From Bacteroidia bacterium (lineage in GTDB: Bacteria > Bacteroidota > Bacteroidia > UKL13-3), in the NCBI GenBank assembly GCA_021740845.1, contig JAIOYZ010000009.1:62001-126000 (forward strand): a DNA stretch of 64,000 nt. The letters run 5' to 3'. How positions within the stretch are numbered: position 1 is the first letter of the stretch; each line of letters opens with the position of its first letter. A program made the translations under genes and the position numbers. This document shows positions 22,670 through 63,867 of the stretch, piece by piece. Under the pieces are notes generated by a model. That model had not been told where the DNA came from, did no database searches, and saw nothing but the letters and a program-made list of their open reading frames with translations.

Positions 22670-22963
22670 TTAGAACTTCTTTTTCTTTGGGTGTTGTCTA
22701 GTATCATAAAACACCAGCAATTCAAAATACGACTTACTGACCTTATAAATTAAAAGGTTGTGCTTTGTTATCAAGACTTCAAACACCTCCTTTTTTCCTG
22801 AACTTCTATGTGTTACAACGCCCGATTGTATTAAGTCAATTGTTTTAGTAGTTTGATTAACGAACTTTATTATTTCTTTTTCCGACCAGTCTTTTTGTAA
22901 GTATGCAATAACCCGGTCGAAACTACTTTTTGCCCTGTTCGACCAAATTACTTTTTTAACCAT
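22670..22963 (-). CDS. ParE/RelE-superfamily toxin
   Basis: A 97-residue basic protein. The N-terminal half (VIWSNRAKSSFDRVIAYLQKDWS) has the ParE helix pair, and the C-terminal strands (HNLLIYKVSKSYFELLVFYDTRQHP) carry the final Arg/His cluster typical of this fold. ParE toxins act on DNA gyrase and RelE toxins on ribosome-bound mRNA; the ParE branch fits better. The start overlaps the antitoxin by 16 bp. The tail is a run of lysines (PKKKKF). Confidence 0.85.
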   Translation of the reverse strand: MVKKVIWSNRAKSSFDRVIAYLQKDWSEKEIIKFVNQTTKTIDLIQSGVVTHRSSGKKEVFEVLITKHNLLIYKVSKSYFELLVFYDTRQHPKKKKF

Positions 22964-23187
22964 TTCTCGTAATCCTTCATTACTTCCTCATGTGGTGTAT
23001 ATTTGCCTTCTTGTATTTCGGTTAAAGCAACCTTTACTTCCGCTTTAATATCATCATGAAGTTCATCCCAAAAGTCTACAGTATCTGTTTCTTCTTTAAT
23101 TACGGCTTTCAGTCTTGAAATCAATTTCTCGCTGTTTATACCAGCTATCTTTTCTAATAACCAGGTTTTTTCTAATTCTATATTCAT
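22948..23187 (-). CDS. Antitoxin of a type II toxin-antitoxin pair
   Basis: A small acidic helical protein of 79 residues from the ATG at 23187; the in-frame ATG at 23211 would add eight residues. It has an Ala/Glu/Lys-rich helix (EVKVALTEIQEGKYTPHEEVMKDYEKWL) whose final part, with the HEEV.K...W pattern, is common in antitoxins paired with ParE toxins. It lies upstream of and overlapping the toxin, the normal antitoxin-first order. Autoregulation by the complex is expected but no operator is evident. Confidence 0.75.
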   Translation of the reverse strand: MNIELEKTWLLEKIAGINSEKLISRLKAVIKEETDTVDFWDELHDDIKAEVKVALTEIQEGKYTPHEEVMKDYEKWLKK

Positions 23188-23244
23188 AACAGAATGTTTT
23201 TGCTGTTTCAAAGGTACAAAACTTCTTTATTTTATACATATTAC

Positions 23245-24735: not shown

Positions 24736-24981
24736 TTATTCTGCTATTTTGGTTTTAATAAATCTTCTCCCAGAGGCAGATTTAAAATACTTTTCTCTAC
24801 TTATTGCTTCTTCTCGAGTATCAAATTCTTCGTGATAAATTATAATAAATGGTGTTTTCGATTTAATGGATATTGTTTCTCCATCATTGTGTTGTTTAAG
24901 TCGTTTCTCCAAATCTTGGCAATGGCCTTTATAAAAGGTTCCATCCTTAAGACTTTTGAGCACATAGGTGTAAAATGCCAT
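24736..24981 (-). CDS. GIY-YIG nuclease domain protein
   Basis: An 81-residue single-domain protein from the ATG at 24981; the frame is open to 25023, but that stretch overlaps the tRNA terminator hairpin, so the shorter start is preferred. The motifs are YTYVLKS and TFYKGHCQDLEKRLKQHN (the GIY-YIG pair with the catalytic Arg), then EEFDTREEAISREKYFKS with the catalytic Glu region. Small proteins of this type (UPF0213-like) are frequent in Bacteroidota and often multi-copy. No partner methylase or restriction subunit is adjacent. Confidence 0.85.
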   Translation of the reverse strand: MAFYTYVLKSLKDGTFYKGHCQDLEKRLKQHNDGETISIKSKTPFIIIYHEEFDTREEAISREKYFKSASGRRFIKTKIAE

Positions 24982-25010
24982 AAATACTATTTTAAACCCA
25001 ATTATAACAA

Positions 25011-25040
25011 AAAAACCAATCATAAATTGATTGGTTTTTT
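25011..25040 (-). terminator. Terminator of the tRNA-Arg transcript
   Basis: The arms AAAAACCAATCA (25011-25022) and TGATTGGTTTTT (25028-25039) are perfect over 12 bp with a five-base loop. They lie 2 bp after the CCA end of the tRNA on the minus strand, and a T-run follows. Confidence 0.85.
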
Positions 25041-25041
25041 G

Positions 25042-25116
25042 TGGTAGTCTCGACGAGAATCGAACTCATATCAAATGTTTAGGAAACATCTATTCTATCC
25101 ATTGAACTACGAGACC
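25042..25116 (-). tRNA. tRNA-Arg (anticodon CCU)
   Basis: 75 nt including an encoded CCA. On the minus strand the acceptor is GGTCTCG paired with CGAGACT (first pair G-T). The D-arm is GTTC/GAAT-like with loop AATGGATA. The anticodon arm is GATGT TTCCTAA ACATT with anticodon CCT, and the T-arm is ATGAG TTCGATT CTCGT. It decodes AGG. The transcript ends at the hairpin 25011-25040. The DNA 5' of the gene contains three tandem partial copies of its first 40 nt (25126-25350). Confidence 0.95.
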
Positions 25117-25125
25117 ATTTTTTTT

Positions 25126-25350
25126 GTTTAGGAAACATCTATTCTATCCCCGCCCGACTGAGCGTTGTTCGGGCGGGCATTGAACTACGAGACCATTTTT
25201 TTTGTTTAGGAACCATCTATTCTATCCCCGCCCGACTGAACGTCGTTCGGGCAGGCATTGAACTACGAGACCATTTTTTTTGTTTAGGAACCATCTATTC
25301 TATCCCCGCCCGACTGAACGTCGTTCGGGCGGGCATTGAACTACGAGACC
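25126..25350 (-). repeat. Tandem array of three truncated tRNA-Arg 5' halves with D-loop hairpin inserts
   Basis: Copies lie at 25126-25194, 25204-25272 and 25282-25350, with an exact 78-bp period. Each contains the first 40 nt of the adjacent tRNA-Arg (acceptor 5' strand, D-arm, anticodon loop with CCT) and lacks the 3' half. Each has the same 29-nt insertion in the D-loop, between ATG and GATAG. The insert folds as CCCGCCCGA...TCGGGCGGG around a short AACG-AC-GTT core. The copies are joined by an eight-base A/T run. The two outer copies share a T-to-G change before TTCCTAA. The intact gene lacks the insert. Confidence 0.9.
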
Positions 25351-25462
25351 AACAATTCACAGAAATTTCTTTGGTTCAAACCGCCAAAACCCCTAAAATC
25401 TGCGCGAAGGTAAGGATATTTTCCTTTTTGTAAATGCTTCTTTTGGTTCAAACCGAATTATT

Positions 25463-60870: not shown

Positions 60871-60907
60871 GGGGGCATTTGGCTTCGGGGGGAGAGAGAG
60901 GCCATTT

Positions 60908-61160
60908 GGGGGATTTGCCTTCATGGGAGAGAGGGGGTCGGTCTAGCCCGACCCGTACGGGTGCAATGTGGGGGATTTGGCTTCATGGGAGAAGGGGTTG
61001 GTCTGGGCCGACCCGTACGGGTGCAATGTGGGGGATTTGGTTTCATGGGAGAAGGGGTTGGTCTGGGCAGACCCTTGCGGGTGCCTATTGGGGGATTTGG
61101 TTTCATGGGAGAAGGGGTTGGTCTTGGCAGACTCTTGCGGGTGCCGATTGGGGGATTTTG
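60908..61160. repeat. GC-rich hairpin repeat array 1 (about 60-bp units)
   Basis: Units begin with GGGGGATTTG at 60908, 60970, 61030, 61090 and 61150, so the period is 60 bp after a first spacing of 62. The unit ends with hairpin-forming sequence: GGGTCGG...CCGACCC, then ACCCGTACGGGT. Later units drift toward TTGG, CAGACC and CCTTGC. A decayed start of another unit lies at about 60871. The run is much richer in G than its surroundings. It stays open in several frames because the units are stop-free and their length is a multiple of three. Confidence 0.8.
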
Positions 61161-63476: not shown

Positions 63477-63867
63477 TGGGGGATTTGCCTTCAGGGGAGA
63501 AGGGGGTCGGTCTAGCCCGACCCGTACGGCTGCCATATGATTGATTTGGCTGGGAGGGGGAATGGGTCGGGCGAGCCGAGCCTTACGGCTGCTATATGAT
63601 TGATTTGCTTTGAGGGGGAATGGCTCGGGCGAGCCGAGCTTTGCCATTGCCATATGGGGGATTTGGCTGGTAGGGAGAATGCTTTGGGTTGTGGCGTGAT
63701 TTGCGTTTGGTGGGGGATTTGCCTTGGGGCATGAGAAGGGGTCGGTCTAGACCGACCCTTACCATTGCCATATGATTGATTTGCCTTGAGGGGAGAATTG
63801 CTCGGGCGAGCCGAGCTTTGCAGGTGCTATATGGGGGATTTGGCTTTGGGGGAGAGATTCTAATTTT
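63477..63867. repeat. GC-rich hairpin repeat array 2 with compensating arm changes
   Basis: Seven imperfect units of the same family as array 1, starting GGGGGATTTG or ATTGATTTG, most ending CCATAT or CTATAT. The stem takes two matched forms: GTCGG/CCGAC (63506-63525 and 63739-63758) and CTCGG/CCGAG (63623-63639 and about 63800-63816). At 63739-63758 the stem is a perfect 20-bp palindrome, GGGTCGGTCTAGACCGACCC. A second small hairpin follows in some units (ACCCGTACGGGT or AGCCTTACGGCT). One unit around 63655-63710 has lost the hairpin. Confidence 0.8.

Follow-up and report, generated by a model that had tools for sequence, protein, structure and literature searches.

SegB is a free-standing GIY-YIG enzyme of T-even phages that is enriched beside tRNA genes and cuts inside them, with RAWTSGAAC as its preferred motif (PMC13096335). 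The tandem amplification of a tRNA segment requires SegB, and how free-standing homing endonucleases avoid the destruction of their own locus is regarded as an open question in the same study (PMC13096335). In the open-access literature, we found no description of hairpin-split tRNA copies arranged with a GIY-YIG gene. Such an arrangement is present in a 64,000-nt stretch of a Bacteroidia genome (4.09 Mb, draft, 66 contigs), hereafter the window, where an array of broken tRNA copies lies next to an intact tRNA-Arg(CCU) gene. We propose, with a probability of about one half, that this array is the remnant of a selfish, tRNA-resident unit of a homing-type nuclease comparable to phage SegB.

The array comprises three pseudo-copies upstream of the tRNA gene (Table 1), with start-to-start distances of 78 and 78 and identities of 96-97%, and TRF reported a period of 78, 3.2 copies and a score of 476. 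This agrees with a sequence-only reading of the locus, which had described three tandem 5'-half copies with an exact 78-bp period and a hairpin in the D-loop, but had counted 40 tRNA nucleotides per copy instead of 41. In the direction of the tRNA, each unit consists of positions 1-17, the 29-nt palindrome, positions 18-41 and then A7 + T. Positions 42-73 are missing from all three pseudo-copies, and the intact gene carries no insert. The palindrome pattern had three matches in the window and none in 100 shuffles of it. The two distal pseudo-copies share the change of GATGTTTCC to GATGGTTCC, the base change that the same reading had noticed in the outer copies, as well as hairpin letters, both of which are absent from the proximal copy, and the proximal unit is more similar in sequence to the intact gene than the distal units are. 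An error of assembly, or a local tandem duplication unique to this locus, is very improbable, given that the units differ from each other, that their flanks are unique and that the same architecture occurs in independent genomes, isolates included. Tandem repeats are easily miscounted in a draft assembly of 66 contigs, and the unit number alone could be off. Separately, the palindrome TTTGGTTCAAACCG occurs twice between the promoter region and the array (25370-25383 and 25442-25455) and again on contigs C62 and C40 of the same genome, and looks like another dispersed repeat. GC-rich tandem arrays with units of about 58-60 bp (TRF) lie at 60901-61158 and 63477-63855 of the window.

Table 1 Features of the tRNA-Arg(CCU) locus, in window coordinates.
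Feature	Position	Strand	Evidence or remark
Intact tRNA-Arg(CCU)	25042..25116	minus	ARAGORN; Rfam RF00005, 62.8 bits
Pseudo-copy 1 (proximal): tRNA positions 1-17, hairpin, 18-41	25125..25194	minus	
29-nt hairpin of pseudo-copy 1, CCCGCCCGAACAACGCTCAGTCGGGCGGG	25149..25177	minus	
Pseudo-copy 2: tRNA positions 1-17, hairpin, 18-41	25203..25272	minus	
29-nt hairpin of pseudo-copy 2, one stem mismatch	25227..25255	minus	
Pseudo-copy 3 (distal): tRNA positions 1-17, hairpin, 18-41	25281..25350	minus	
29-nt hairpin of pseudo-copy 3	25305..25333	minus	
Bacteroidota-type promoter -7 box, TACCTTCG	25405..25412	minus	Candidate, consensus match
Terminator-like hairpin 3' of the tRNA	25010..25040	minus	z -4.5; also in array-free relatives (L141, L144)
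Stand-alone GIY-YIG endonuclease gene, 81 aa; longer start at 25023 possible	24736..24981	minus	PF01541, E 5e-15

The GIY-YIG gene, which had gone unmentioned in the sequence-only reading, lies 60 nt downstream of the tRNA on the same strand, just past the terminator of the tRNA. The nearest solved chains to its product are UPF0213 proteins, and Y6, Y17, G19, R27 and E63 are invariant across five aligned relatives. With a significant profile match and the conserved GIY/YIG tyrosines, arginine and glutamate, the product belongs to PF01541. This was the sole domain found in the protein, and a separate DNA-binding part was not detected. The gene is under purifying selection, with a median dN/dS of about 0.10 over 72 pairs, a few of which are affected by frame errors in the codon alignment. 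Searches for relatives of the protein gave one distant match among phage records and one among viral contigs; with this single weak phage match, the one viral contig and five distant plasmid matches, a phage or plasmid origin was not adopted. The nuclease tree was likewise not taken as a demonstration of transfer between tRNA types or between genomes, as the tRNA labels cluster on it (13 changes versus 28 in shuffles) and few of its forks are resolved. In the window, two small overlapping minus-strand ORFs (22670-23211) have, by eye, the look of a RelE/ParE-type toxin-antitoxin pair.

Comparison within the genus showed that GIY-YIG genes, fragments and hairpins are all absent from the 13 loci with a single intact tRNA-Arg(CCU), and that both loci with a GIY-YIG gene at tRNA-Arg(CCU), those of the window and of G017, have fragments and hairpins. 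Two further genomes (G018 and G004) have a plain 5' tRNA fragment without hairpin or nuclease, and the second tRNA-Arg(CCU) of G003 also has fragments. The sequence-only reading was to be given up if the array and its insert were absent from every relative and no transcript was seen; hairpin-bearing copies do occur in relatives. The intact tRNA-Arg(CCU) of the window matches that of relatives without the array in 73 of 73 letters, and six relatives share all 73 letters with it, which indicates that the intact gene is native to the lineage. In a search of 19 genomes of the genus, all matches to the strict palindrome (CCCGCCCG...CGGGCGGG) lay at tRNA-Arg(CCG) or tRNA-Arg(CCU). Stand-alone GIY-YIG genes of the genus are also found at tRNA-Met, Ala, Asn, Leu and Asp, where the altered tRNA copies carry other hairpins, such as TCCCGATAGCTATCGGGA. 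The system extends beyond tRNA-Arg.

In 13 relatives, a TANNTTYG box lies 20-39 nt before the tRNA, whereas in the window the array separates the tRNA from the nearest such box, at a distance of 296 nt. This supports the earlier suggestion that the copies lie within the region of the tRNA precursor, and the array is probably placed in what should be a transcribed leader. Such a position raises the possibility that the array works as RNA, either as a structured leader controlling processing, as a decoy for an anticodon nuclease or as a neutraliser of the GIY-YIG protein, in the manner of type III toxin-antitoxin systems, whose RNA antitoxins are repeated. The sequence-only reading had likewise suggested a structured leader, decoy half-tRNAs or substrates for RNase P as possible roles. 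The units have stable folds (z = -3.5 to -4.5 versus shuffles), and tandem arrays before an intact tRNA recur at other loci (L124, L106 and L107) and, with three units, at a tRNA-Ser gene of the same genome. However, the copies differ widely from locus to locus in where they lie, how many there are and how they are truncated, and many are downstream of the tRNA, the pairing of the hairpin stems shows no excess of compensatory change over shuffles, and an Rfam search of the array and eight related loci found tRNA as the sole structured RNA. We consider a function of the array as RNA improbable.

The proposal of a nuclease unit draws on the recurrence of the same association across the phylum. 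We scanned named genomes with an alignment of five GIY-YIG proteins and kept the best 80 of 176 loci, nearly all of them from Bacteroidota. Of these best 80, 75 have a tRNA gene on the same strand no more than about 400 bp away, and in three of the five loci without a tRNA, the contig begins less than 140 bp ahead of the gene. Like SegB, which is reported to be enriched beside tRNA genes, the gene lies within 1 kb of such genes much more often than expected. The tRNA is tRNA-Arg at 73 of the 75 linked loci (39 CCU, 31 CCG and 3 TCG), with one Gln and one Leu making up the rest. Moreover, extra tRNA fragments are present near the gene at 70 of these 75 loci. In 30 of 41 measurable cases, the nuclease gene ends no more than 5 nt from the next tRNA-like 5' end, and in most of 55 it starts 7-20 nt past the 3' end of the preceding tRNA. 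The interval between two tRNA copies is thus taken up by the nuclease gene. The commonest order is tRNA-gene-copy (26 loci), followed by copy-tRNA-gene-copy (20), copy-gene-tRNA (13) and the copy-tRNA-gene order of the window (5), with other orders at the remainder. Across loci, the fragments share 97% identity with the tRNA beside them and 82% with the same isoacceptor elsewhere, which indicates that they formed in place or have been kept alike by conversion.

The fragments are broken at recurrent positions, which are in the D-loop 17/18 (between positions 17 and 18) and 21/22 (22/23 in TCG), in the anticodon arm 35/36 and 39, and in the T-arm 50/51 and 55/56. The inserts at these breaks are nearly all GC-rich palindromes, mostly of 27-32 nt. 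A strict palindrome search was positive in 84 of the 110 fragment groups, and several of the remaining groups have longer or degenerate palindromes, as judged by eye. Palindrome density is 2.95/kb within 40 nt of tRNA-derived stretches and 0.034/kb in the rest of the loci. Fixed breakpoints at the ends of truncated copies were also considered and were not seen, the ends being scattered across loci. In addition, a search for split tRNA-Arg D-arms in 395 genomes of the class recovered hairpin-split copies in unrelated families, and several of these loci hold a stand-alone GIY-YIG gene. Hairpin-bearing copies without a nearby GIY-YIG gene also exist (L015, L011 and the tRNA-Ser array in L270).

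The genome of the window contains further copies. With up to three mismatches allowed, the palindrome has six sites, all at tRNA-Arg sequences: the three array copies, and three more around tRNA-Arg(CCG) on contig C62. One of the latter occupies the same D-loop position in a 5' fragment just upstream of the intact tRNA-Arg(CCG), and the other two bound a 1.8-kb segment that encodes a 500-aa KAP-type NTPase and is inserted in the anticodon loop of another broken copy. The anticodon-loop hairpin of that copy (L011:5283-7377) is thus duplicated around the segment, whose NTPase gene is a possible cargo or defence gene. Besides tRNA-Arg(CCU), hairpin-bearing copies in this genome are found at tRNA-Arg(CCG), Ser, Asp and Asn. 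On contig C57 (L270:731-1250), three tandem 5' parts of tRNA-Ser(GCU) lie upstream of the intact gene and form a second array of the same design. The anticodon arm of each part contains a TCTCGTCA...TGACGAGA hairpin that differs from that of the tRNA-Arg(CCU) array, and next to this second array are tRNA-Asn copies with a hairpin and a GIY-YIG gene. Two other stretches were noted. On C17 (L014:1-430), tRNA-Asp(GTC) is followed by a GIY-YIG gene and then a hairpin-bearing tRNA-Asp copy, inside which the contig ends. On C40 (L012:700-2650), a tmRNA gene is followed by many copies of the short repeat tcaccgaagccttggcgtaggtga, with a GIY-YIG gene about 1 kb on.

The hairpins themselves could have another source. 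They may be REP-like palindromes that insert themselves, perhaps via a Y1 (RAYT-type) transposase, with a preference for tRNA loops and with spare copies tolerating them, in which case the nuclease would explain the copies and not the hairpins. The hairpins are imperfect palindromes in the 20-40 nt range of REP sequences, their stem cells are paired in 83% of cases versus 23-49% when slid by 1-3 columns, and their arms hold a conserved mismatch, as in many REPs. The palindrome family is dispersed between genes in several other Bacteroidia genomes, for example G113 and G218, which favours a REP-like origin and disfavours a sequence exclusive to tRNA. It also splits tRNA-Leu copies and another tRNA (L226, L230), and Y1 transposase genes are present in nine of ten genomes checked, with four in that of the window, none of them near the array. 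Yet one genome with the insert (G330) had no Y1 gene that we could find, and elsewhere in the genus, other tRNAs have hairpins of different families in this role. Furthermore, the many intergenic copies typical of REPs, which normally spread between genes, are not seen in the window's genome, where all six copies lie at tRNA-Arg. On balance, we consider this origin of the hairpins unlikely. The earlier idea of a palindromic element that targets D-loops agrees with these data in that the palindromes form a REP-like family, and departs from them in that the T-loop, the anticodon and other positions are used too and that the hairpins are tied to a GIY-YIG gene. In the two other Bacteroidia genomes, the D-arm splits lie in two tRNA-Leu copies 543 bp apart and in another tRNA (L226:608-1200, L230:690-1106).

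We compared the hairpin positions with the motif of SegB. The reverse complement of RAWTSGAAC corresponds to the T-loop GTTC-SAWTY, which is found in tRNA-Arg as GTTCGATTC. With the break placed between S and G, position 55/56 of the window tRNA scored nine of nine, and the D-loop positions 17/18 and 21/22 each scored 6, sharing second place with a few others. At 55/56 the strand of the motif is opposite to that at 17/18, and hairpin orientation follows this: the unique asymmetric inserts in the D-loop all point one way (24:0), and those in the T-loop mostly point the other way (3:7; P = 2e-5, for inserts that are not independent). Sites 39, 49/50 and 50/51 fit the motif poorly. The break phase was picked after seeing the data, and shuffled motifs choosing their own phase reached the observed fit in 18 of 500 trials. 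We regard the match between hairpin sites and the SegB motif as no more than suggestive.

Based on these data, we propose how a nuclease unit of this kind could give rise to the array. A stand-alone GIY-YIG gene would sit between or beside copies of a tRNA gene, and its product most likely cuts the tRNA gene. Recombinational repair would then leave tandem tRNA copies around the nuclease gene, as the anatomy of the loci suggests and as others have shown for SegB, and one copy would stay intact and serve the cell. Hairpins placed in the spare copies at the presumed cutting motif may both disable the tRNA and remove the site; their position and orientation are as described above, and this purpose is our interpretation of them. 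In the window, a 3'-truncated hairpin copy between the promoter and the tRNA may have been amplified to three by slippage or unequal exchange, and such units may also move between genomes. Several findings speak against a nuclease unit. Both motif sites are retained in the intact tRNA, so hairpins would protect the unit incompletely; the putative cutter consists of a catalytic domain alone; the fit to the SegB motif is poor at three sites and is reached by some shuffled motifs; some hairpin-bearing copies have no GIY-YIG gene close by; and the palindromes occur away from tRNA genes in other Bacteroidia.

A stronger version, which we put forward tentatively as possible but somewhat unlikely, is that the hairpin-split copies themselves have a function within the selfish unit. 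The hairpins would mark the cleavage sites of the nuclease, or the copies would act as RNA decoys that restrain it, and an essential tRNA gene could thus be exploited without killing the cell. If so, these loci would form a chromosome-borne, phylum-wide class of tRNA-gene parasites with their own immunity marks. For the nuclease unit as such, an apparently isolated oddity becomes a recurrent and testable system, in which a minimal nuclease gene and hairpin-disabled tRNA copies would colonise essential tRNA genes across the phylum. The loci offer natural material for studying how free-standing homing endonucleases spare their own locus and could be one origin of changes in chromosomal tRNA copy number. 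For annotators, half-tRNA copies beside Bacteroidota tRNA genes may be products of this system.

Several known systems share single features with these loci. The layout of type III toxin-antitoxin systems is similar to that of some loci only. REP sequences (PMC3733652) are likewise GC-rich and imperfectly palindromic, with a length of 20-40 nt, a dispersed distribution in some genomes and a conserved arm mismatch, but in the window's genome the hairpins are limited to tRNA-Arg and no linked RAYT gene was seen. The repetitive hairpin elements of sponge and fungal mitochondria (PMC2800124) are also short, mobile-looking hairpins inside RNA genes; they reside mostly in spacers or variable parts of rRNA genes that are still functional, whereas those described here reside in dispensable tRNA copies beside a nuclease gene. 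Group I introns in bacterial tRNA genes (PMC3984707) are selfish DNA in tRNA genes too, some with homing endonucleases. In contrast to them, the functional tRNA is uninterrupted here and no intron RNA family was found; an insert of 29 nt, with no ribozyme core and no Rfam match, was not classed as a group I intron. The free-standing GIY-YIG homing endonucleases of T-even phages, SegB among them (PMC13096335, PMC2988022), share with these loci a stand-alone GIY-YIG gene beside tRNA genes, and the SegB motif RAWTSGAAC is the T-loop site that holds hairpins in the present loci. We did not assign the protein to SegB, which is phage-encoded and has a separate DNA-binding region. Unlike SegB, the present gene is chromosomal and encodes 81 aa with the catalytic domain only, its subfamily is tightly bound to tRNA-Arg, and the spare tRNA copies beside it carry hairpins.
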